Source: a virus
IMG/VR virus record: IMGVR_UViG_3300004448_000425
Span: 1-23,278 of that record
Length of the DNA stretch: 23,278 nt
Reading direction: 5' to 3' (one strand)
Shown: positions 3,324 to 23,278 of the stretch, piece after piece
Numbering within the stretch: the stretch's first letter is position 1
Layout: each line of letters opens with the position of its first letter
Notes under the pieces: model-generated
Database searches by the model: none
Told to the model about the DNA's origin: nothing
The model's input: the letters and a program-made list of their open reading frames with translations, nothing else
Translations under genes and position numbers: made by a program

Positions 3324-5080
3324 CTAAAGAAACTTTAGTGTTCGACATAGAGACCAACGGGTTACTTGATGAACTGGACGCCATCCACTGTATCTCTATC
3401 TACAATGTAGAACAGCAGGAGCAGTACACTTCATCAGGCAGTAGCGTACTGGATGCCCTGCCCTTGCTCACCGAGGCAGATACCTTGGTCGGCCACAACA
3501 TAATCGACTTCGACATACCCGCTATCCAGAAGCTGGTCCCTAGTTTCCAGCCTCAAGGTCTAGTCAGAGACACGCTGGTGATGAGCCGTCTTATCTGGCC
3601 CGACACCAAAGAGAAAGACTACGAGCGTGGGCTACCCAATAAGCTGGTAGGCAGTCACTCGCTGAAGGCGTGGGGGCTTAGGCTGGGCAACACCAAGGGA
3701 GACTTCGAGGGTCCGTGGGACACACTGACCCAGGAGATGAAGGACTACTGCGAGCAGGACGTTAGAGTAACTGCTGACCTGTACGCTCGACTTCTGTCCG
3801 AGAACTTTACAGAGCAGAGCATTGATCTAGAGCACCGTGTACACCGCATCTGCCTAGACCAGAAGCGACAAGGGTTCGCCTTTGATGTGGACGGCGCATG
3901 GTCTTTGGTCAACCGACTGAACAAGGACCGGACAAAGCTGGAGAAGTATTTCCAAAAAGTTTTTCCACCTATCACCGATGTCTCCTACTTCATACCGAAG
4001 AGCAGCAACTCACGGTATGGTTACACCGCTGGTGTACCTGCCAAAAAAGAAAAGACGATTACCTTCAACCCCCGTAGTCGCCAGCACATAGCCTCAAGGC
4101 TGAAGGATAAGTACGGCTGGAAGCCCGATAAGTTTACAGCCAGCGGACAGCCTCTTCTTGACGAGCGCGTTATTGAGCGCCTTCCTTTCGATGAGGCAGA
4201 GAGCCTTGCGACCTACCTGCTGATACAGAAACGGATAGCCGCCATATCCGAGGCGAAGCAGGCTTGGCTAAACAATGTCCACCTTGGAAGACTACACGGC
4301 AGCGTCATCACGAACGGCGCGGTCAGCGGTAGGGCCACTCATAGATACCCCAACTTAGCTCAAGTTCCATCGACCCGTGTGCCATACGGTGCTGACTGTC
4401 GCCGCCTGTTCTGTGTGCCGGAAGGTAAGATGCTAGTCGGTAGCGACGTTAGTGGCCTTGAGCTACGCGCCCTCGCCCACTTCCTGCACCCGCTAGACAA
4501 CGGTCAATACGCAGAGGCTGTGGTCAATGGGGACATCCACACCTTCAACCAAAAGCTGGCAGGTCTTGAGACTAGGGATCAGGCGAAGACATTTATCTAC
4601 GCCTTAATTTATTCGGCTGGTTTCCAGAAGCTAGGCGAGGTTGCTGGCGGCAACGCGGCGACCGGCAAGAAACTCAAGACCCGGTTCCTTAAAGAACTTC
4701 CCGCACTTAGCCGACTTATCAAGTCAGTAACTAGCAAGGCGACAGAGAAGGGCTACCTGCTTGGGCTGGACAAGCGGAAGCTCCGCGTTCGATCCCCGCA
4801 CTCCAGCCTCAACCTATTGATACAAAGCGCAGGAGCACTGCTTTGCAAGCAGTGGCTTGTAGAGATTCACGCAGAATTACAAAGGAGAAAACTAGATGAC
4901 CGATGCAAGCAAGTCGCTTGGGTCCATGACGAAGTACAATTTGAATGTGATGAGGATATAGCAGATGAGTTTGGACAGATCGCAGTTGGAGCTATTCGAG
5001 ACGCTGGAGAACACTTCGGATTTAGATGTGAACTCTCCGCTGAATACAGCAAAGGCAAAACTTGGAATGAGACCCATTAG
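3320..5080 (+). CDS. Family A DNA polymerase with 3'-5' exonuclease (T7 gp5-like)
   Basis: 586 residues from a TTG start; T7 gp5 has 704. The proofreading domain shows Exo I VFDIETN (Asp9, Glu11), Exo II GHNIIDFD (Asp65) and Exo III YCEQDVRVTADLY (Asp147). The polymerase domain shows motif A SDVSGLELR (Asp376), motif B RDQAKTFIYALIYSAG (419-434) and motif C WVHDE (Asp near 536). The end, TWNETH, resembles other phage polymerases, so the C-terminus is native. An ATG-like start farther upstream would lie inside the helicase gene. TTG at 3320 is chosen because GGAGG at 3308-3312 is well spaced, it overlaps the previous TGA, and the exonuclease fold begins at once. The region that holds the thioredoxin-binding loop in T7 is about half as long. 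A family B palindrome begins at codon 2. Confidence 0.95.
   Translation: MTKETLVFDIETNGLLDELDAIHCISIYNVEQQEQYTSSGSSVLDALPLLTEADTLVGHNIIDFDIPAIQKLVPSFQPQGLVRDTLVMSRLIWPDTKEKDYERGLPNKLVGSHSLKAWGLRLGNTKGDFEGPWDTLTQEMKDYCEQDVRVTADLYARLLSENFTEQSIDLEHRVHRICLDQKRQGFAFDVDGAWSLVNRLNKDRTKLEKYFQKVFPPITDVSYFIPKSSNSRYGYTAGVPAKKEKTITFNPRSRQHIASRLKDKYGWKPDKFTASGQPLLDERVIERLPFDEAESLATYLLIQKRIAAISEAKQAWLNNVHLGRLHGSVITNGAVSGRATHRYPNLAQVPSTRVPYGADCRRLFCVPEGKMLVGSDVSGLELRALAHFLHPLDNGQYAEAVVNGDIHTFNQKLAGLETRDQAKTFIYALIYSAGFQKLGEVAGGNAATGKKLKTRFLKELPALSRLIKSVTSKATEKGYLLGLDKRKLRVRSPHSSLNLLIQSAGALLCKQWLVEIHAELQRRKLDDRCKQVAWVHDEVQFECDEDIADEFGQIAVGAIRDAGEHFGFRCELSAEYSKGKTWNETH
3323..3339. repeat. Family B palindrome, copy 2 (ACTAAAGAAACTTTAGT), inside the start of the polymerase gene
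   Basis: The inverted repeat starts at the base after the TTG initiator and encodes codons 2-6 (Thr-Lys-Glu-Thr-Leu) plus the first two bases of codon 7 (Val). The A of the upstream helicase TGA stop is also its first base. Exact conservation within coding sequence points to selection on the DNA or RNA. As RNA, the hairpin would begin just after the initiator codon. Confidence 0.85.
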
Positions 5081-5450
5081 TATTGAATGGTTGGCGGGTT
5101 ACATCGATGGTGAAGGGTGCTTCCTAATTAGTGGACGCTCCACCCCTGTCGTTAAAATCAATAGCTGCCACTTCGATGTGCTGTGCCGCATATCAGATCA
5201 ATTCGGCGGCAAGATTTACAACCACAGTAAAAGTACAGACAGCCACCGCGCATCATGGACTTGGCACTTGGGCGGGGACGCTGCGTTAGATTTGTCAGCC
5301 TCTCTCCTGCCCCACCTCATAGAGAAAAGGTCACAGGCAGTAGCGTTGATGGCTCTACCCACATGCTCAGATCATCAGCGTCAGTACGTGATGGATTTTT
5401 TAAAAGAAGAGAAGAAACCATTCTTTGAACACTTGGAGAGTAATCAATGA
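5067..5450 (+). CDS. Single-motif LAGLIDADG endonuclease-like protein
   Basis: A 127-residue ORF that begins MRPISIEWLAGYIDGEGCF; LAGYIDGEG is a clear LAGLIDADG helix, with Glu16 at the usual metal-binding acidic position. One motif and a length near 130 residues fit the homodimeric class of homing endonucleases. No second motif, intron or intein is seen. The chosen start overlaps the polymerase end by 14 nt. A longer form starting at the ATG at 4965 has a better Shine-Dalgarno (GAGGA at 4952-4956) and adds 34 residues, but would overlap the conserved polymerase C-terminus by 116 nt. The stop overlaps the exonuclease start by 4 nt (ATGA). T7 carries an unrelated HNH-type gene (5.3) in the same 5-6 interval. 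The family is fairly sure; whether it still cuts DNA, and where, is unknown. Confidence 0.8.
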   Translation: MRPISIEWLAGYIDGEGCFLISGRSTPVVKINSCHFDVLCRISDQFGGKIYNHSKSTDSHRASWTWHLGGDAALDLSASLLPHLIEKRSQAVALMALPTCSDHQRQYVMDFLKEEKKPFFEHLESNQ

Positions 5451-6244: not shown

Positions 6245-6492
6245 GAGAAGAACGAGCAGAGGTTGTTGAGAACCCCTCCCATTACACCCGCTGGAAAATC
6301 GAACCTGTCACCTACGTGATGAGGAACGGAATGGAGTTTTGGCGGGGCAATATAATTAAGTACGCCTCACGCGCAGGTTTCAAAAGCCAGCCGGGTAAGA
6401 CAGCCGCAGAGGCTGAAATAACTGATCTTCAAAAAGTCATCCGGTACGCCGAGATGCGGATAAACCAACTTAACGGAAAGGAAGAACTTTGA
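6193..6492 (+). CDS. DUF3310 protein, related to the C-terminal part of T7 gp1.7 nucleotide kinase
   Basis: A 99-residue protein with the DUF3310 pattern: NPSHYTRWKIEPVTYV (27-42), NIIKYASRAG (53-62) and an amphipathic DLQKVIRYAEMRI helix (78-90). T7 gp1.7, which has nucleotide kinase activity, carries a similar domain, so a role in dNTP supply is plausible, and its place next to a ribonucleotide reductase agrees. No P-loop is visible, and activity cannot be assigned from sequence. The start at 6193 is chosen for GAGGAG at 6178-6183. The alternative ATG at 6241 forms an ATGA overlap with the exonuclease stop and would still keep the whole domain, removing 16 residues. Confidence 0.82.
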   Translation: MGAAPLEDHDQYILRRMREERAEVVENPSHYTRWKIEPVTYVMRNGMEFWRGNIIKYASRAGFKSQPGKTAAEAEITDLQKVIRYAEMRINQLNGKEEL

Positions 6493-8189
6493 CACTGCTC
6501 GCCAACGCTCAGTACGGGATGACACTCCCGATCTCCATAGAAATTGACACCCAAAAGTATCGACAAACTGGCGAGGATTTTTACTCTAAGGTTGTCCGTA
6601 TAGCGGACTCACTCAAGGACAGCCCGGAGCACTTCGAGCAGTTCAAGGACATCCTGCGATACCTGCGCTTCCTACCTGCTGGTCGCGTTCAGAACGCTAT
6701 GGGTGCTGCAAGGCAGACTACCGCATACAACTGCTTTGTGTCTGGCGTCATCGATGACTCTATGGACTCAATCATGCAGGCAGCGACCGACGCTGCTGAG
6801 ACTATGCGGCGTGGCGGGGGTATCGGATACGACTTCTCTCGCCTTCGCCCCCGTGGTGACAGGATCAAATCATTAGAGTCCAAGGCGTCCGGTGCGGTCA
6901 GCTTCATGGGCATCTTCGACGCAGTTTGTCAGACCATCGCCAGCAGCGGCCACCGTCGCGGCGCACAGATGGGCGTCCTTCGGGTCGATCACCCTGACAT
7001 TGAGCAGTTCATCACAGCCAAGCACAACGAGTCCTACCTAACAGGTTTCAACATCTCTGTCGGTATCACCGACGAGTTCATGCAGTGCCTCGAAGAGAAG
7101 AAACCTTTCCCTCTTCGGTTTGGCGGGGAAGTACATAAAGAAATAGACCCCGTTGCCCTGTGGGACATGATTATGCGGTCTACATGGGATTGGGCAGAGC
7201 CGGGAGTTCTGTTCTTAGACACCATAAATAAGATGAACAACCTTTGGTACTGCGAAACCATCGAAGCCACCAACCCCTGCGGAGAGCAGCCTCTCCCACC
7301 CTACGGAGCCTGCCTGTTAGGCAGCTTTAACCTTACAAAATATGTAGAGGACGGTCGGTTCCTCTGGGAGCAGTACAAGGATGATATACGTGCGAGTGTT
7401 AGAGCTATGGATAACGTCATCGATAGGACCATCTACCCACTACCGGCGCAGAAAGATGAGGCGCTGGCTAAGAGGCGGATGGGGCTTGGCGTTACTGGTC
7501 TTGCTAACGCTGGTGAGCTTATGGGTCATCCTTACGGGTCTCCAGATTTTATGGAGTTTGCCGATAGGTCGATGAGAGAGTTACGGGACAACTGCTATTC
7601 CACGTCAGCCGATCTAGCAGAAGAGAAAGGTGCGTTCCCTCTGTACGACAAAGATAAGTACCTATCCGGGCAGTTCATCCAAACACTCCCTGAAAACATA
7701 CGCTCCAAGATTGCTGAGAAAGGCATACGTAACAGCCATCTCACCTCTATTGCCCCGACAGGCACGATCAGCCTTACCGCTGACAACGTGTCGTCAGGCA
7801 TAGAGCCACCCTTCGCGATGTATTACGACCGCACTATCCAGCAGTTTGATGGACATCAGATTGAACGTGTCGAGGATTATGCGTACCGGCTTGGCGTGAA
7901 CGGGCGCACCGCGAACGAGATATCCGCCCAAGAGCATGTAAGCGTCCTGTCGCTTGCATCTCAGTACATGGACTCAGCAGTGTCTAAAACTTGCAACGTA
8001 GGCGACGACGTTACTTACGAAGAGTTCAAAGACCTTTACCTCATGGCTTATCGACAAGGTTGTAAAGGGATCACGACCTTTAGAGCCGCTGGCAAAAGGT
8101 ATGGAATACTTAACGAGGTCAAAGAAGAAGAGCCTAAAGCAGAGGCTTGTTACATTGATCCCGCTACAGGCCAGAAAACCTGTGAGTGA
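6489..8189 (+). CDS. nrdJ: Class II (adenosylcobalamin-dependent) ribonucleotide reductase
   Basis: 566 residues. The enzyme reduces ribonucleotides to deoxyribonucleotides using a radical generated from coenzyme B12. Cys82 (AYNCFVSGV) and Cys275 are the expected redox pair, and Cys264 in NPCGEQPLPPYGACLLGS the radical-carrying residue. The 264-275 spacing of 11 equals that of Thermotoga NrdJ (Cys322, Cys333). The C-terminal block TCNVGDDVTYEEFKDLYLMA and GCKGITTFR is typical of NrdJ. Two cysteines at the extreme end (554, 565) could be the shuttle pair, though their spacing is wide. No small-subunit gene (nrdB) is nearby, supporting class II. The TTG start overlaps the previous TGA (TTGA) and has AAAGGAAG just upstream; ATG at 6519 is the alternative. 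The phage would depend on host or environmental cobalamin. Confidence 0.92.
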   Translation: MTLLANAQYGMTLPISIEIDTQKYRQTGEDFYSKVVRIADSLKDSPEHFEQFKDILRYLRFLPAGRVQNAMGAARQTTAYNCFVSGVIDDSMDSIMQAATDAAETMRRGGGIGYDFSRLRPRGDRIKSLESKASGAVSFMGIFDAVCQTIASSGHRRGAQMGVLRVDHPDIEQFITAKHNESYLTGFNISVGITDEFMQCLEEKKPFPLRFGGEVHKEIDPVALWDMIMRSTWDWAEPGVLFLDTINKMNNLWYCETIEATNPCGEQPLPPYGACLLGSFNLTKYVEDGRFLWEQYKDDIRASVRAMDNVIDRTIYPLPAQKDEALAKRRMGLGVTGLANAGELMGHPYGSPDFMEFADRSMRELRDNCYSTSADLAEEKGAFPLYDKDKYLSGQFIQTLPENIRSKIAEKGIRNSHLTSIAPTGTISLTADNVSSGIEPPFAMYYDRTIQQFDGHQIERVEDYAYRLGVNGRTANEISAQEHVSVLSLASQYMDSAVSKTCNVGDDVTYEEFKDLYLMAYRQGCKGITTFRAAGKRYGILNEVKEEEPKAEACYIDPATGQKTCE

Positions 8190-8420: not shown

Positions 8421-8636
8421 ATGTGCCTCTCGTCTCCAAGAGCAGCCCCGGCACCTAAGCCGCAGATCATGGGTGAAGCAGAAGATAAAGAAGCTCCAAC
8501 CCTAAAGCTGATTGGTGAAGGAGACAACGACTCCGGGGGTGGCGACAAGGTTGCTGAAGCTGCTGGAGCGACTAATTCTGAGGGATCAGCTTTGACTATT
8601 CCTAAGAAGAAAGGGACAGGAGTCGTCTCTGTCTAA
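8421..8636 (+). CDS. Small low-complexity protein, possibly a gp7.3-like tail assembly or virion protein
   Basis: A 71-residue protein with an MC N-terminus, a proline/alanine-rich start (SSPRAAPAPKPQ), an acidic glycine-rich middle and the end ALTIPKKKGTGVVSV. Small proteins with an MC start and a short basic-hydrophobic end recur directly before podovirus portal genes; T7 gp7.3 (99 aa), needed for tail assembly, sits in this slot and has a comparable end. The match is in style and position only, so the call is tentative. AAGGAA lies upstream with normal spacing, and its TAA shares the A of the portal ATG (TAATG). Confidence 0.6.
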   Translation: MCLSSPRAAPAPKPQIMGEAEDKEAPTLKLIGEGDNDSGGGDKVAEAAGATNSEGSALTIPKKKGTGVVSV

Positions 8637-10210
8637 TGGCTGAAGGTAGCTGTTCTTCCCGTTATAACAGGCTTACCTCTAAACGTGACTACTACCTCGA
8701 CAGAGCTAGAGAGACAGCAGAGCTAACGATACCGGCTCTGCTCCCCCCAGAAGGCTTCACCTCTGCCTCTGATATCTACACCCCTTTCCAATCTGTAGGC
8801 GCTAGGGGCGTAAACAACCTGTCCAGCAAGTTGCTTATGCTTCTTCTACCGCCTAACACGCCATTCTTCCGGCTCATGCCTGACAGCGATACGCTCAAAG
8901 AGCTAGAAGAACAGCCTGACATTAAACAAGAAGTAGAAGGCTCTCTCAGTAAGATCGAACGTCAGCTAATGGACGAGATCGAAGTAGGCGCGTTTCGGGT
9001 AGCAGTCTTTGAAGCCTTAAAGCACATGATAATAGCCGGGAATACTCTGGTTCATGTGCCTGACAACGGCGCACTAAAAGTTTTCCCTCTCAGTAACTAT
9101 GTTATCCGGCGCGGACCTGATGGTTCCGTCCTAGAAATCATAGTTAAAGAGCTAATAAGCAAGCAAGACCTTGGCCTTGAAAGTCCTGAGTATGAAAGTG
9201 CTGATGGTAGCTACGGGGACAGCTACGTACCTAACGATGCCAAGCCTATCTACACGAAGATTATAAAAGTAGGTGATATCTACCAAGTCTATCAAGAGAT
9301 AGACGACCAGATAATCGAAGAGTCTTACGGAGAGTACCCGTTAGACCTTCTACCTTGGCTCCCCTTACGCATGGTCCGCGTAGACGGAGAAGATTACGGA
9401 AGATCATTTGCAGAAGAACAGCTTGGAGACCTTCGGTCCTTAGAAGGACTGACACAGGCTCTCGTAGAGTCTGCCGCAGCAGCCTCGAAGCTGGTCTTCA
9501 TGGTACGACCAAATGCCACTACTCGTAAAAGCGATATAGCCGAAGCAAATAACGGCGACGTGGTTACGGGAAGTCCTGATGATGTGACTGTCTTGCAGTC
9601 CGGTAAGTATCAGGACATGCGTGTGGTGTTAGACGCGGTTCAGCGCATTGAGGAACGGTTGAAATTCGTTTTTCTCCTCAACGAATCAATCCAACGAAAT
9701 GCCGACCGCGTTACAGCCGAAGAAATTCGGTTTATGGCGAACGAGCTGGAGTCGGCCCTCTCCGGTGTTTACTCTCTCCTCTCCGTAGAGTTCCAACTTC
9801 CGCTCGTTCGTATCCTTATGAAACGGATGCAGGCTAAAGGTAAGATACCTAAGCTCCCCAAAGACAGCATCACGCCTGTCATCGTCACAGGTACAGCCGC
9901 ACTAGGCAGAGGAAACGATCTTCAGAAACTGAAGTCGTTCCTACAAGACCTGATTACTTTGACAGGCGCGTCCCCCAATTCCATCCAACGAATAAAAACA
10001 GGCGACCTTATCAGGCGTCTAGCTACCGGACACGGCATAGAGGTCCAAGGGCTTATTCGTTCTGATGAAGAAATCCAATCCATGATGCAGCAACAACAGC
10101 AACAAGCTCTGATGCAGCAAGGACTAACCGAAGCCGTGAAGGGGGCAGCACCTGAAGCGGGTAAACAAATGATACAACAGGGAATAGATTTAGATGGCCT
10201 CCAGACGTAA
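8636..10210 (+). CDS. Portal protein, head-tail connector (T7 gp8-like)
   Basis: 524 residues, T7 gp8 being 536. The N-terminal segment with RDYYLDRARETAELTIPALLP and FQSVGARGVNNLSSKLLMLLLPPNTPFFRL is the standard portal opening in this group. A central DYGRSFAEEQLGDLRSLEGLTQALVESAAAASKL and NRDAVTAEEIR-like block (RNADRVTAEEIRFMANELE) follow. The protein forms the ring through which DNA enters the head and to which the tail tube attaches. A glutamine-rich run (MMQQQQQQALMQQ, about 483-495) lies near the C-terminus. The start is coupled to the previous stop (TAATG). The 3' end overlaps the basic protein gene by 17 nt. Confidence 0.95.
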   Translation: MAEGSCSSRYNRLTSKRDYYLDRARETAELTIPALLPPEGFTSASDIYTPFQSVGARGVNNLSSKLLMLLLPPNTPFFRLMPDSDTLKELEEQPDIKQEVEGSLSKIERQLMDEIEVGAFRVAVFEALKHMIIAGNTLVHVPDNGALKVFPLSNYVIRRGPDGSVLEIIVKELISKQDLGLESPEYESADGSYGDSYVPNDAKPIYTKIIKVGDIYQVYQEIDDQIIEESYGEYPLDLLPWLPLRMVRVDGEDYGRSFAEEQLGDLRSLEGLTQALVESAAAASKLVFMVRPNATTRKSDIAEANNGDVVTGSPDDVTVLQSGKYQDMRVVLDAVQRIEERLKFVFLLNESIQRNADRVTAEEIRFMANELESALSGVYSLLSVEFQLPLVRILMKRMQAKGKIPKLPKDSITPVIVTGTAALGRGNDLQKLKSFLQDLITLTGASPNSIQRIKTGDLIRRLATGHGIEVQGLIRSDEEIQSMMQQQQQQALMQQGLTEAVKGAAPEAGKQMIQQGIDLDGLQT

Positions 10211-11042
10211 AGCTTCAGCCGGACAACGTGTAAGAGCAGGTTCGTACCTTGCCGACCGCGCCAAGAAAAAAGCGGCAGCTAAGAAACCCGCAGCTAAGAA
10301 ACCCGCAGCTAAGAAACCCGCAGCTAAGAAACCCGCAGCTAAGAAACCCGCAGCTAAGAAACCTTCGGTCAGCCCTTTAAAGCAGCTTCAAGCTAACGAG
10401 AAAGCCTCCGCTAATGCTGCTAAAAAAGCCGGTTATGGTACGGGGAAAAAAGCCGGTGTTCGCGCAGGTATGCGAGCAGCAGGTAGATCACCTATGGGCA
10501 AAGGCCCGGTAGGCACAGGCATTGGCGCAGCCCTCATGGGCGCGAGCTTCCTGCCTGACGTTACAGCCGACAAGTCTAAGCAACGCGCTGCGAACAGGAA
10601 AAAGCCTACTAGCAGAAACAGCATGAGAGCTACGTCCCGTAGGGCCACCCCTCCGGTAGACAAAGGCAAAGCACCTAAGCAGCGTCCCCAAGGCGCAAAG
10701 GTTCCCGTCATCAAGCCTAAGCCCGGACCTACTAAAGTCCGTCCTGAGGGAAGCCGTAAGCTCGACAGGACAGAAAACAAACGCCGTAACGCTGGTGACT
10801 ATGGGGGAAACTCAACAGGTGCATCCATGCGTATGTCTCCTAAACCCATAAATCCTACGCGTGTGACTCTGTCTACGAAAACCGGGAATAAGAAAACTAA
10901 AGCTGGAAACTACCCCGTCTATAAAAAAAGATCTTCAGCCGCAAGATCATTTCAAACTGCATTTGCAGACGCCCGTAAGAGCGGAAGGAAGACGTTCACT
11001 TGGCAGAAACGAAAGTACACAACCAAAGTTAAAAAGAAATGA
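10194..11042 (+). CDS. Very basic virion-associated protein with AAKKP repeats
   Basis: This 282-residue protein is rich in Lys, Arg and Ala. Residues 28-57 are six AAKKP units, like the lysine/alanine/proline tails of histone H1 and bacterial H1-like proteins. The middle is low-complexity, basic and proline-rich. The C-terminal FQTAFADARKSGRKTFTW followed by KYTT (253-277) resembles a short domain I associate with phage proteins between portal and scaffold genes. A DNA-binding or DNA-condensing role in the head is inferred from charge and position. It has no T7 counterpart that I recognise. A ribosome site AGGGAA lies within the portal gene. Confidence that it is a real gene is high; its function is unproven. 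Confidence 0.85.
   Translation: MASRRKASAGQRVRAGSYLADRAKKKAAAKKPAAKKPAAKKPAAKKPAAKKPAAKKPSVSPLKQLQANEKASANAAKKAGYGTGKKAGVRAGMRAAGRSPMGKGPVGTGIGAALMGASFLPDVTADKSKQRAANRKKPTSRNSMRATSRRATPPVDKGKAPKQRPQGAKVPVIKPKPGPTKVRPEGSRKLDRTENKRRNAGDYGGNSTGASMRMSPKPINPTRVTLSTKTGNKKTKAGNYPVYKKRSSAARSFQTAFADARKSGRKTFTWQKRKYTTKVKKK
10275..10364 (+). repeat. Tandem repeat, six 15-bp units (GCAGCTAAGAAACCC)
   Basis: Five identical units and a sixth with one change (last C to T), in frame, each encoding Ala-Ala-Lys-Lys-Pro. Near-perfect identity even at synonymous positions points to recent expansion by slippage or recombination, so copy number may vary between relatives. Confidence 0.95.
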
Positions 11043-11051
11043 GGATAAACA

Positions 11052-11204
11052 ATGGCTATAGCGCCAAAAGCAGAGACCCCTACTAAAGCTAAAGAACCTG
11101 AGTACCCCGAATGGCCGGGTGTCGAAAATGCGGAAGACGATATCATTTATCGCCTGCCTAAAAGCGGCAACCTAATCCAAAAAGGAGAAAAGGCTGATGG
11201 TTGA
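11052..11204 (+). CDS. Small 50-residue protein of unknown function
   Basis: ATG at 11052 with GAGG at 11041-11044, 7 nt upstream, opens a 50-residue frame beginning MAIAPKAETPTKAKEPEY and ending LIQKGEKADG. The middle, YPEWPGVENAEDDIIYRLPK, has a folded-looking mix of aromatics and acidic residues. The frame fills the gap between the basic protein and scaffold genes and overlaps the scaffold start by 8 nt, the packing used elsewhere in this genome. No family is recognised. It is likely a real gene because the gap has no other use. Confidence 0.7.
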   Translation: MAIAPKAETPTKAKEPEYPEWPGVENAEDDIIYRLPKSGNLIQKGEKADG

Positions 11205-11952
11205 ATCTGTACAAACATTTGAAGGGGAGACCGGACCAGATGCTCCTACAGAAACTCCCGCAGAAGCTCCTGTCGTTGAGCAAGTCAATGGTACAGAGGT
11301 TCCAGAGAGTGTTCTCCCAGACAAGTTTGCGAATGTCGAAGACCTTATTAAGAGCTACAACGAGCTTGAGTCAAAGCTTGGCAATGCTTCGGAAGAGCCT
11401 GCTCAAACTGATGAGCCACCTCCAGAAGAAGCTAAAGAAGTTCTCGCAGACCGTGGTCTTAGTTTTGATGACATGGCAGCAGAGTACGCTAGAGATAGCT
11501 CACTCAGCGAAGCGCGTTATGAAGAACTTGAAAGTGCTGGCATCCCTCGCAGCATGGTCGATCAATATATCGAAGGCCAGAAAGCGGTTGGTGAACGTGT
11601 TCAGCAACAGGCGTTCGAGGTAGTAGGCGGCGAAGACGCTTACAACGAAATGCTGACATGGGCGCAAGCCTCCATGACAGAAGGCGAGATTAACTCCTAT
11701 AACCGTGCGGTTCAGGCCGGTGACGTTGATGATAAAATCCTAGCAGTCCGTGGGCTGCACTCTAGGTTCATTTCGGAAAACGGCATCGCCCCTAATTTAC
11801 GGCATGGCAACTCAATCAGCGGTGCGGCCAACGATATGTACGGCAGTTGGGCGCAAGTCACATCTGATATGCGTGACTCTCGCTACAAGAACGACCCTGC
11901 TTTCCGAGCAGAGGTTGAGGGCAGAATTTCTAGATCAGGAACTCTGTCCTAA
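11197..11952 (+). CDS. Scaffolding / capsid assembly protein (T7 gp9-like)
   Basis: 251 residues, acidic and Glu/Ala/Pro-rich, placed between portal and capsid genes like T7 gp9 (about 307 aa). The N-terminal segment LPDKFANVEDLIKSYNELES (40-59) followed by KLG is the typical opening motif of podovirus scaffolds. The middle (AYNEMLTWAQASMTEGEINSY, about 208 onward to the end being basic) suggests a helical protein with a C-terminal shell-binding end. It would guide capsid protein into a prohead and then leave. The ribosome site AGGAGAAAAGG precedes ATG 11197. The start overlaps the upstream small ORF by 8 nt. Confidence 0.88.
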   Translation: MVESVQTFEGETGPDAPTETPAEAPVVEQVNGTEVPESVLPDKFANVEDLIKSYNELESKLGNASEEPAQTDEPPPEEAKEVLADRGLSFDDMAAEYARDSSLSEARYEELESAGIPRSMVDQYIEGQKAVGERVQQQAFEVVGGEDAYNEMLTWAQASMTEGEINSYNRAVQAGDVDDKILAVRGLHSRFISENGIAPNLRHGNSISGAANDMYGSWAQVTSDMRDSRYKNDPAFRAEVEGRISRSGTLS

Positions 11953-12046: not shown

Positions 12047-12081
12047 CTCATTCCCTAACTCTAAATGTGAGGTACTACCAA

Positions 12082-13044
12082 ATGGCTAACGCCGTTCCTT
12101 CGCGTCTAGGTCAGGTCAATGCGTCGGGTTCTGCTGACGCTCTATTCCTTAAAGTATGGGCCGGTGAGGTTCTTGAAAGCTTTGAACAGTATACTGTTAC
12201 AGCCGACAAGCACATGCTCCGTTCTATTGCTTCAGGTAAGAGCGCACAGTTTCCGGTCATGGGCCGTTCTAGCGCATCCTATCACACCCCCGGCAACGAA
12301 ATTAACGGGAGTGCGATCAACCACAACGAGAAGGTCATCACGATCAACGACCTTCTCATCGCCCACCATTTCATTGCGGAAATTGACGAGGCCAAAAATC
12401 ACTACGACGTGAGGTCTGTCTATACGCAGGAAATGGGTCGCGCTCTCGCCTTCCAGATGGACAAGCACGTCCTTCAGATGATGCTGGCGGCAGCGAAGAC
12501 CACCACGGCAAACGTGGGAGACACCAGCTACCCGTCAGGTACAATCGTTACTTCGACCAACGCAGGGACAGCAGCGAACGATCTTATTGCTGCTATCTTT
12601 GATGCTGCCGAAGCTCTTGACGATAACTACGTGCCTTCCGAGGATCGCTTCTGTTTCCTCAAGCCGGACGACTACTACATGCTGGCTAACGCCACCAATG
12701 CGGTCAACGTAGACTTTAGCGGAAGCGGGTCGATTGCTGACGGTACGGTAACGAGCATTGCTGGTATCCAACTCATCAAAACCCCCCACCTGCCGACTGG
12801 TAATGTCACGGGTACGGGTGTTGATGCTGGTGGTGCCGGTGGAGCACAGGTTGTGGACGCACGTAACACAATCGCTCTAGTAGCCCACCCGTCTTGCGTT
12901 GGTACGGTAAAGCTCATGGACCTTGCGGTTGAGAGCGAATATCAAATCCAGCGGCAGGGTACGCTCATGGTCGCAAAGTATGCGATGGGTCATGGCGTCC
13001 TTCGTCCTGAAGGTGCTGTACAGATTCGGAGTGCCGCCCCGTAA
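12082..13044 (+). CDS. Major capsid protein (T7 gp10A-like)
   Basis: 320 residues (T7 gp10A: 345). It shows the T7 capsid signature in order: ALFLKVWAGEVLESF (20-34), HMLRSIASGKSAQFPVMGR (44-62), HNEKVITINDLL (81-92) and NHYDVRS (106-112). It forms the icosahedral head with an HK97-type fold. ATG 12082 is chosen because GAGG lies 9 nt upstream (12069-12072) and the protein then starts MANAVPSRLG; a GTG at 12067 would add five residues and destroy that ribosome site's spacing. A family B palindrome lies in the leader and a terminator lies 25 nt downstream, so the gene probably has the high separate expression seen for T7 gene 10. A second frame after the stop is open to 13123, but I see no convincing slippery site. 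Confidence 0.97.
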   Translation: MANAVPSRLGQVNASGSADALFLKVWAGEVLESFEQYTVTADKHMLRSIASGKSAQFPVMGRSSASYHTPGNEINGSAINHNEKVITINDLLIAHHFIAEIDEAKNHYDVRSVYTQEMGRALAFQMDKHVLQMMLAAAKTTTANVGDTSYPSGTIVTSTNAGTAANDLIAAIFDAAEALDDNYVPSEDRFCFLKPDDYYMLANATNAVNVDFSGSGSIADGTVTSIAGIQLIKTPHLPTGNVTGTGVDAGGAGGAQVVDARNTIALVAHPSCVGTVKLMDLAVESEYQIQRQGTLMVAKYAMGHGVLRPEGAVQIRSAAP

Positions 13045-13732: not shown

Positions 13733-15810
13733 TGGCTCTAGTATCTGACTCCATCCCTTTTATGGTTCAAGGCATAAGCCAGCAGCCATCAGAGGTAAGA
13801 AAACCGTACCAAGGTGAGATACAAATAAACGGGCAGAGTTCTCTGGTAGATGGGTTAAACAAAAGACCCCCTTCAGTTCACGTAGCTAAACTCCTTACGT
13901 CTTCCGCCTCCAATGTCTCCTGCCACTTAATCAACCGGGGGCCGACTGACCGTCACATAGTGCTGATACAGAGCGATGGAACTCTGGGAAACACTTCCTT
14001 AAAAGTTTTTGATGCCGTCACTGGTGCTTCACGCACGGTGACTAACACGGCCAGTTTGAACTATCTGGTTACATCAGACCCAAGAAACGATATCAGATTT
14101 CTCACAATCCTTGACCAGACCTATGTACTAAACCGTTCTAAAACAACGGCGGCAGGAAGTACGACTTCTGCAAACATCACTCTTACGGAGAAGCAGCGGT
14201 TTTCAGACCTACCTACTACTGGGGTCAGCACAGGAGACAAGTTTAAAATACAAGGGGATGACGACGACAACTTCAGCACGTTCTATGTCGAGTACCAAGC
14301 AGGCACGGTGTATGAAGAGACTGTCGCGCCCAACATCGTAGTAGACCTAGATCAAACTTCTTTGCCCCACAAGCTGACGCAATCAGGCTCTGCCTTTACT
14401 TTTGACGTGATCGATTACGCAGACCGTTTAGTCGGAGATGCTACAACAAACAAATCACCCGCGTTTATAGGTAAAAAGCTAAACGCTATGTTCTTTTTCA
14501 AGAACAGGTTTGGTGTGGTAGCCGGTCAGGAGGTTGTTTTTTCTGAATCAGGTGAGCCGGATAATTTCTTTAAAACTACGGTAACGACCAATAAAGACAG
14601 CGACCCTATTCACGTATCAGTAACGCATACTCGAATATCCGAGATCGAACATGCTGTTCCGTTCAACGAGCAGCTTATGCTTTTCTCGGCTACCTCTCAG
14701 TTTTTCGTAGATAGCAACGGTGCGCTTACGGGGTCTACTATTTCAGTCAATCCTGCCTCTGACTTTGAGATGGATGTAAAACTAGCTCCTATTGGTGCTG
14801 GTATTAACGTGTACTTTGCACAGGCGTCAGGACAGTTCTCTCGTATTAGAGAGTTATTTGTAGCCACTGATAACAGCACAACGGACGCTGCCGACATCAC
14901 CGCTCACGTACCTAAGTATGTCCCAAAAAACCTGACAAAGATTGCAGCGTCTTCCTCAGAAGACCTAATGCACATGGTGTCGTCAGATCAGCCTAACAGG
15001 CTGTACTGCTATAAGTACAACTGGTCAGGAGTGGATAAGAACCAGAGTGCTTGGGGGTTCTACGAGTTCGCGAGCAGCGACATTATCCTGTGGATAGAGA
15101 TCGTAGAGAACACCACGTACATGCTGGTCTCTAGGTCCGATGGCGTCTTTCTAGAGACTATGGATTACATAGGGCCAGACGATACGAACTTAACGTACAA
15201 CGCAAAGCTCGACCGGAAGGTATCACTCACTGGTTCATACAATGCCGGGACGGGTAACACGACTTGGACCCTTCCTTATGAAGTAGCAACCAGCACCCCC
15301 CTCGTAGTCATAAAGGCCCACACCACGCCCGACGCCGGGATAACCATAACGAACACTAGGCCAACCACGACGACCGTGGTGGCTGTAGGCGACTACAGTG
15401 GGTTCAGTTGTGTTATCGGAGTTCCTTACCAGTTTCAGTACAGGTTCTCTACCCCGTATGTACGAGAAGCTACCGGGGTATCTACCAGTATCGGTGAAAA
15501 GATGGCGGTTACTACAGGCCGTCTTCAGCTACGGAGGTGGAGCGTAACGTACAAAGATACTGGAGCTTTTACGGTAGAGGTAGCTCCCGAAGGCCGAGGG
15601 TTAAAGTCCTACGAGTTCACCTCAAAGCGCGTGAACTTATCTAGCTCTTCTATTGAGAGAGTCGCCTTAGAGTCAGGGACTTTTAAGTTTCCTATCATGG
15701 CCCGGAACACTTCTGTCAAGATCGACGTTAAGTCTTCCTCTCACTTTCCTTGCAATCTCGTTCAGGCAGAGTGGGAAGGTAACTACAGCGTACAGTCAAG
15801 GCGTATGTAA
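13732..15810 (+). CDS. Tail tube protein B, nozzle (T7 gp12-like)
   Basis: 692 residues, T7 gp12 being 794. The opening SIPFMVQGISQQPSEVRKPYQGEIQINGQSSLVDGLNKRPP (shown in parts: VQGISQQP, GLNKRPP) is diagnostic. Other family blocks are FFKNRFGVVAGQEVVFSESGEPDNFF and the RLYCYKYNWSG and WGFYEF strands of the beta-propeller. Hexameric nozzle protein closes the tail and carries the fibres. It is coupled to gp11 by TGATG and to the next gene by TAATG. The size difference comes from the body; both termini are recognisable. Confidence 0.94.
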   Translation: MALVSDSIPFMVQGISQQPSEVRKPYQGEIQINGQSSLVDGLNKRPPSVHVAKLLTSSASNVSCHLINRGPTDRHIVLIQSDGTLGNTSLKVFDAVTGASRTVTNTASLNYLVTSDPRNDIRFLTILDQTYVLNRSKTTAAGSTTSANITLTEKQRFSDLPTTGVSTGDKFKIQGDDDDNFSTFYVEYQAGTVYEETVAPNIVVDLDQTSLPHKLTQSGSAFTFDVIDYADRLVGDATTNKSPAFIGKKLNAMFFFKNRFGVVAGQEVVFSESGEPDNFFKTTVTTNKDSDPIHVSVTHTRISEIEHAVPFNEQLMLFSATSQFFVDSNGALTGSTISVNPASDFEMDVKLAPIGAGINVYFAQASGQFSRIRELFVATDNSTTDAADITAHVPKYVPKNLTKIAASSSEDLMHMVSSDQPNRLYCYKYNWSGVDKNQSAWGFYEFASSDIILWIEIVENTTYMLVSRSDGVFLETMDYIGPDDTNLTYNAKLDRKVSLTGSYNAGTGNTTWTLPYEVATSTPLVVIKAHTTPDAGITITNTRPTTTTVVAVGDYSGFSCVIGVPYQFQYRFSTPYVREATGVSTSIGEKMAVTTGRLQLRRWSVTYKDTGAFTVEVAPEGRGLKSYEFTSKRVNLSSSSIERVALESGTFKFPIMARNTSVKIDVKSSSHFPCNLVQAEWEGNYSVQSRRM

Positions 15811-22543: not shown

Positions 22544-23278
22544 ATGTCGTTTGCGCTCACTAGGACAACTGGTGACGGCAGCACTGCTACGTTCAATGTG
22601 CCGTTCAGCTACAGGGCTACGGCTGATGTTATAGTTAAAGTAGCTGGCGTGACCAAAACGATTACCACTCACTACACGTTCCCTACTTCTTCCACCATTC
22701 AGTTTACGGCGGGAAACATACCAGCTAATGCAGCGGTCGTTGAAATACGTAGGGCTACTAGCCACAACGCTCGTCTGGTTGATTACGTAGCTGGTGCAAC
22801 TCTGACAGAGACTGATCTAGACACTGACTCAGAACAAGCGTTCTTCATCTCCCAAGAAGCTATCGACTACGCTACAGATACCATTGCTCTTAACGCCAAC
22901 GACAAGTTCGACGCCCTCAACAAGCAGATACAAAACCTAGCAGACCCCGCTCTTGCACAGGATGCTGTAACTAAAAACTACTTAGAAAACACGTTCCTTA
23001 CACCCACTGATAAAACAAACATCACTGCGGTTAATGCAGTCTCTACAGAAATAGGACGCCTCGGCACCGCAGAGGCAGTAGCCGACATGGCGATCATCGG
23101 CACCGCTGATTTCGTTGCCGACATGAATACAATAGCGTCCGCAGATTTTGTTTCTGACCTGAACACCGTCGCTTCCGCCGATTTCGTGGCCGATATGAGC
23201 GTGCTGGCAACGGCAGACGTTGTAACCGACATGAACACACTTGGCACCAGCGCAAACGTCACGGCGATGGACACAGTG
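22544..23278 (+). CDS. Tail fibre protein, N-terminal part (T7 gp17-like; runs off the window)
   Basis: The frame is open from ATG 22544 to the last base (245 codons), with AAAAGGAAAA as ribosome site. Residues 1 to about 150 match the T7 fibre N-terminal domain, which anchors the fibre to the tail nozzle: TGDGSTATFNVPFSY, a THYTF turn, VVEIRRAT and LTETDLDTDSEQAFFISQEAID. From residue 173 the protein is made of 12-residue repeats (see separate entry), probably a shaft or coiled segment. The receptor-binding tip lies beyond the window, so specificity cannot be judged. It follows gene 16, as in T7. Confidence 0.92.
   Translation, partial: MSFALTRTTGDGSTATFNVPFSYRATADVIVKVAGVTKTITTHYTFPTSSTIQFTAGNIPANAAVVEIRRATSHNARLVDYVAGATLTETDLDTDSEQAFFISQEAIDYATDTIALNANDKFDALNKQIQNLADPALAQDAVTKNYLENTFLTPTDKTNITAVNAVSTEIGRLGTAEAVADMAIIGTADFVADMNTIASADFVSDLNTVASADFVADMSVLATADVVTDMNTLGTSANVTAMDTV
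23060..23275 (+). repeat. Six imperfect 36-bp (12-residue) repeats in the tail fibre
   Basis: Successive units read LGTAEAVADMAI, IGTADFVADMNT, IASADFVSDLNT, VASADFVADMSV, LATADVVTDMNT and LGTSANVTAMDT. The heptad-like spacing of hydrophobic residues suggests a trimeric shaft. DNA identity is lower than protein similarity, so the array is old or under selection. It may continue past the window. Confidence 0.88.

Follow-up and report, generated by a model that had tools for sequence, protein, structure and literature searches.

The basic protein encoded between the portal and scaffold genes of the window (the whole 23,278-nucleotide stretch of DNA analysed, from IMG/VR virus record IMGVR_UViG_3300004448_000425) ends in a conserved module of 28 residues that is common to many unrelated phages. 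This C-terminal module is the most telling feature of the protein and was missed by the original prediction, which had described the product as histone H1-like. The gene occupies positions 10194-11042 of the plus strand (ATG at 10194, TGA at 11042) and encodes 282 residues, modelled as a disordered basic body followed by a helix/beta-hairpin module. Its start overlaps the last 17 nt of the upstream gene for the portal, or head-tail connector (8636-10210, plus strand; PHROG 449, E 2.6e-175). Downstream on the same strand lie a 50-residue ORF without a PHROG match (11052-11204), the gene for a T7-type scaffold or capsid assembly protein (11197-11952; PHROG 1052, E 7e-49; Pfam Phage_T7_Capsid) and the major capsid protein (MCP) gene (12067-13044; PHROG 267, Pfam Gp10A-like).

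The 282-residue protein (30 kDa) contains 51 lysine, 27 arginine, 7 aspartate and 3 glutamate residues and has a pI of 11.8 and a net charge of +68. Charge per 100 residues was +24, compared with +5.5 for the runner-up among the 19 window proteins checked. The scaffold protein is acidic (net -28). These values, taken with the PHROG matches of the portal and scaffold, agree with the earlier description of a strongly basic protein lying among the head genes. A Pfam profile search of the protein returned no family at E ≤ 1, histone families included. The histone H1 label thus holds for composition and fails for family membership, and assignment to histone H1 or Hc1 was rejected. The PHROG search gave weak matches only (phrog_613, a head protein, E 0.021; phrog_33526, E 0.019), the first of which covers part of the module region. 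A known enzymatic domain, whose detection by profile search would have refuted the original prediction, was found in neither Pfam nor PHROG.

The equivalent slot in T7-like relatives, located by portal similarity, is empty in many and holds an ORF of 42-66 residues in others; the gene is therefore accessory or dispensable within this group. The short ORFs overlap the portal end in ten portal relatives (L006, L007, L009, L011-L013, L019, L020, L028 and L029) and are possibly equivalent to the 50-residue ORF of the window at 11052-11204.

When the whole protein was used to search for relatives, loci alike only in the last 31 residues were recovered, and searches with this C-terminal part detected that short stretch in widely differing phages. 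In the window the module comprises residues 252-279 (10947-11030, plus strand; SFQTAFADARKSGRKTFTWQKRKYTTKV). An alignment of 25 sequences gave the consensus SFxxAFAxARKxGxKTFTWNGKKYTT, in which five columns (F, G, F, Y and T) do not vary and several conserved positions hold lysine or arginine. A profile built with the window family excluded detected the window module at 44.3 bits (E 4.9e-10 per million sequences). The best score over 1.9 million shuffled residues was 8.7 bits, and chance likeness of basic low-complexity sequence was ruled out by this control. The module is preceded by an extension (residues 220-251; 10851-10946, plus strand; ..KTKAGNYPVYKKRSSAAR..) that was modelled with low confidence as a hairpin. 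This extension recurs in a set of proteins from another phage lineage, whose genes immediately follow that of the major head protein.

AlphaFold was run on the single sequence and with a 40-sequence alignment. The single-sequence model had a mean pLDDT of 57, with low confidence nearly everywhere outside residues 251-280, for which pLDDT was about 83-90. With the alignment, this region was predicted as a helix (248-263) followed by a hairpin (strands 267-270 and 273-276) at a pLDDT of about 90. The remainder of the protein was mostly under 60 in the AlphaFold models. In these models the body is mostly disordered, and the module, a predicted helix plus beta-hairpin, is the sole confidently folded part.

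Searches of PHROG and Pfam with the 28-mers gave no family below E 0.07, and a PDB sequence search with the module gave a best E of 1.1. Neither Pfam nor PDB showed similarity of the module to known nucleic-acid-binding domains. When the modelled module was compared with PDB structures, the best Foldseek match had an E of 5.2; the best VIA-align Z score was 3.3. Given these weak scores no structural relative can be named, and novelty of the fold does not follow from them. The best BFVD matches (E 0.02 to 0.2) included the carrier from MedDCM phage S28-C3, already known by sequence. Plasmids searched for the module gave zero matches, and a literature search with six variants of the motif string found no paper quoting it. 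Basic head proteins as such are already known. A portable module that occurs across phages in this way seems not to have been described in the databases and papers covered (Pfam, PHROGs, PDB and the literature).

Near the other end of the protein, Tandem Repeats Finder identified a 15-bp tandem repeat at 10275-10363 (plus strand; consensus GCAGCTAAGAAACCC; period 15, 5.9 copies, 100% matches). It encodes the six AAKKP units noted in the original prediction, at about residues 28-57. Its perfect DNA identity, third positions included, would fit recent expansion or homogenisation by slippage and so supports the recent expansion proposed there. The repeat is also present in the two nearest relatives (L005 and L001, both from metagenome 3300004461), and contig breaks fall within it: L005 ends there and L001 begins there. 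Of all parts of the protein the repeat probably says least, because relatives with a gene in the same slot carry the module without it. A hypervariable spacer lies at 10751-10870 (plus strand), where 120 nt compared with the sister contig L001 contained 36 mismatches and 17 gaps; the neighbouring genes differed by about 1% mismatches, and 10991-11050, a segment that includes the gene end, showed zero differences. Between these two contigs the spacer is free to vary and the module end is preserved. Recombination or relaxed constraint is a possible cause of the hypervariable segment. A second tandem repeat (period 36, 2.7 copies, 71% matches; Tandem Repeats Finder) is located near the window end at 23103-23198.

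Two other ORFs of the window were noted by eye. A 161-residue ORF at 4965-5450 overlaps the 3' end of the DNA polymerase gene and contains a LAGLIDADG-like stretch (WLAGYIDGEGCF); to judge by this motif, it is a possible homing endonuclease. A 566-residue ORF at 6489-8189 resembles ribonucleotide reductase and lies within the T7-like gene order.

Searches recovered the module from at least 245 IMG/VR loci and from 22 records among 50,697 phage genomes. Carriers among the phage records were Rhizobium Autographiviridae, MedDCM phage S28-C3, Roseobacter phages CRP-13 and CRP-345, pelagiphage HTVC115P, T4-like cyanophage DSL-LC03, the crAss-like phage cr107_1, csAssE-Sib, 200-kb Pseudomonas putida phages and two gut ssDNA microviruses. 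Two copies were seen within one protein at L151:1676-2251, and more than one ORF of the locus carried the module in L087, L088 and L110.

A scan of 84,980 bacterial and archaeal genomes with a single strict pattern returned 15 stretches and three related loci. One of these (L135) and an IMG/VR locus (L169) both have 7,547 bases and match at the same place, and appear to be one contig; the second (L136) adjoins a portal gene. Two of the three loci recovered by this pattern appear to be phage contigs. The third (L137:3854-4498), on a 209-kb contig of an Ignavibacteriales MAG, encodes a bacterial-looking basic protein that has a signal-peptide-like start and carries the module twice. It was the only clear cellular carrier seen, and a wider profile search across 296 genomes of its phylum yielded only the genome already known.

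Among T7-like phages, the Rhizobium phages RHEph01, RHEph21 and TRX32-1 have a portal gene, a module protein of 162-169 residues with the module at the N-terminus, and a T7 scaffold gene. The same order, again with an N-terminal module, was present in the other T7-like phages L213 and L104. The module and its slot are retained across T7-like groups while the remaining protein changes. Further orders were portal (phrog_156), module and scaffold-like gene (L107); portal (phrog_1216), hydrolase plus module, scaffold-like gene and MCP (L119 and L127); MCP (phrog_334) and module (L142, L155, L179, L190 and L191); TerL, module and portal (L151); and module and TerL (L145, L132, L154, L194 and MedDCM S28-C3). 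The portals in these settings belong to different families (phrog_449, 156, 1216 and 332). A recognised head gene was detected in 50 of the 98 listed loci (a few kb each; 20 queries), which is a lower bound given the limited query set and refers to loci picked via the module, without a matched control rate. In the 200-kb P. putida phages, a stand-alone module protein of 46 residues is encoded among replication and DNA-metabolism genes.

Net charge was positive in 96 of 99 distinct carriers (median +15.7 per 100 residues). Of these, 37 have the module at the C-terminus, 13 at the N-terminus and 49 internally, a spread that a tag would be expected to show. Several carriers combine it with hydrolases. 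In the two microviruses it is fused to an M15 peptidase (L050:2178-2765 and L220:2314-2892, M15-type, module at the C-terminus), and the annotated 98-residue CDS of Tortoise microvirus 70 is only the end of a 195-residue open frame. At L119:3347-4123 and L127:3376-3900, a SleB-type Hydrolase_2 domain accompanies the module between the portal and the scaffold-like gene. The csAssE-Sib carrier is a tail lysozyme (Phage_lysozyme2) that adjoins the muzzle gene, the HTVC115P carrier has 1,893 residues and an endolysin match, and the cr107_1 carrier is a 792-residue protein encoded directly after a very large gene. These last three look like virion cargo. The search for virion proteomics on any carrier found none; it took in passages of the papers that describe Rhizobium phage TRX32-1 and Sulfitobacter phage GT1.

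The most economical reading of these data is a modular design in which a folded anchoring or targeting module is joined to a variable payload. The explanation that we tentatively put first, at somewhat under even chances, is that the window protein is an accessory head protein. The module would act as a portable, phage-specific anchor that brings its carrier to the assembling head, by way of the scaffold, the portal or the shell interior. The long disordered tail, with its net charge of +68 and slippage-prone AAKKP tract, would bind packaged DNA or the acidic scaffold; in principle, a polycationic tail could neutralise DNA or pair with its acidic neighbour. The most likely final location of the protein would be the head interior, from which it may leave together with the genome at ejection. 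We infer that the module anchors the protein, that the protein is present in the virion and that its tail binds DNA or scaffold. Some carriers fit a head tag poorly: the 46-residue protein of the P. putida phages, the microvirus M15 peptidases and the two-copy bacterial protein. Microvirus virions lack any portal or scaffold like those of tailed phages.

A broader version, in which the module is a virus-specific general sorting tag on basic DNA-binding tails, cell-wall hydrolases and giant ejection proteins, is possible but on the unlikely side. The common destination would most likely be the virion. At the same level of doubt, such a tag would span unrelated T7-like, T4-like and crAss-like phages, pelagiphages and perhaps ssDNA microviruses.

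The main rival places the module at the cell envelope, as a mini-domain that binds, for example, peptidoglycan. Injected or released carriers would then act at the wall, and the basic tail would cling to the anionic envelope. Such a role would account for the fusion or proximity of the module to unrelated wall hydrolases (M15, Hydrolase_2, Phage_lysozyme2 and the HTVC115P endolysin match), for its presence in microviruses, with no need of a head target, and for the two copies and signal-peptide-like N-terminus of the sole clear cellular carrier. On hydrolase fusions, microviruses and the bacterial protein it performs better than the head-protein explanation; on the positions of the genes within head modules it performs worse. 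Most carriers are extremely basic, have no recognisable enzymatic or secretion feature and adjoin genes for the portal, scaffold, MCP or terminase, not genes for lysis, and the likely ejection genes of the window lie elsewhere, from 15810 onward. We consider envelope binding unlikely.

Nearest to the original prediction is the view that the module itself binds nucleic acid. The protein would then be a DNA- or RNA-binding packaging cofactor, a protector of new genomes or a modifier of the host nucleoid, possibly outside the virion. Lysine or arginine at several conserved module positions, the strong basicity of the carriers, the proximity of some to terminase and the stand-alone copy among DNA-metabolism genes all point this way. 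The fusions to wall hydrolases are left unexplained by it, however, and the Pfam and PDB searches showed no similarity to known nucleic-acid-binding domains; we regard it as doubtful, and its chances as low.

The order portal, module, scaffold in four T7-like groups, L107 and L119, and the opposite charges of the two window proteins (+68 and -28), would also suit an assembly aid that joins the acidic scaffold, as its partner or chaperone, while the prohead forms and that departs with it. The slot is empty in many related T7-like phages, however, and other carriers adjoin TerL or follow the MCP instead of the scaffold, which makes this role quite improbable. Low-complexity basic filler of little function, arising by repeat slippage in a dispensable gene, would be in keeping with the perfect repeats, the hypervariable spacer and the many relatives without the gene, but is very improbable given the strong conservation of the terminal module across very distant phages and the fact that the window and L001 are identical over roughly the final 50 bases of the gene despite the diverging spacer.

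If the module targets heads or virions, as the accessory head protein explanation holds, virion cargo could be recognised by a sequence tag of wide occurrence. Numerous basic proteins that are merely hypothetical in phage metagenomes could then be assigned as internal virion proteins, and the module would offer a portable tag for capsid loading comparable to the T4 capsid targeting sequence (CTS). If it binds the cell envelope instead, it would be a new minimal wall-binding module common to tailed and ssDNA phages. Either way, a single short module links proteins of phages with unrelated portals and capsids.

Several known systems resemble the window protein in part. Histone H1-type tails (linker histone and chlamydial Hc1) share with it lysine-, alanine- and proline-rich repeats, extreme basicity and predicted disorder. 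It differs from them in having no linker-histone or other Pfam domain, its folded part being the 28-residue module. The T7 internal virion or ejection proteins gp13-gp16 share a possible destination inside the head; the window nevertheless has separate homologues of these at 15810 (PHROG 308) and 16298 (PHROG 805), and the basic protein had no profile match to the gp13-gp16 families in the PHROG search.

The cargo proteins of crAss001 are gp45 and gp46 (PMC10172136), and the module gene of cr107_1 occupies the position equivalent to that of crAss001 cargo protein 1 (PMC10172136). Homology was rejected after phmmer searches with the cr107_1 gene and its two neighbours gave no PDB relative and no sequence link to the solved crAss001 proteins, so this link is positional only. 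The phage records that the module queries matched did not include the crAss001 genome.

In T4, the basic internal proteins IPI-IPIII and foreign cargo are taken into proheads by a short portable sequence (PMC9026906). The window protein is likewise basic and encoded among head genes, a likeness in manner of working and not of family membership. The T4 CTSs are N-terminal propeptides of 10-19 residues that are cleaved by the prohead protease (PMC9026906), whereas the window module has 28 residues, is predicted to be folded and occupies residues 252-279 of 282. Across carriers, moreover, the module is C-terminal, N-terminal or internal. RHEph01 gp034, annotated merely as hypothetical, differs from the window protein in its N-terminal module, its length (166 residues), its net charge (+19) and the absence of the AAKKP repeat; with its RHEph21 and TRX32-1 relatives it shares the same slot between portal and scaffold, the same module and a basic body rich in proline and alanine.
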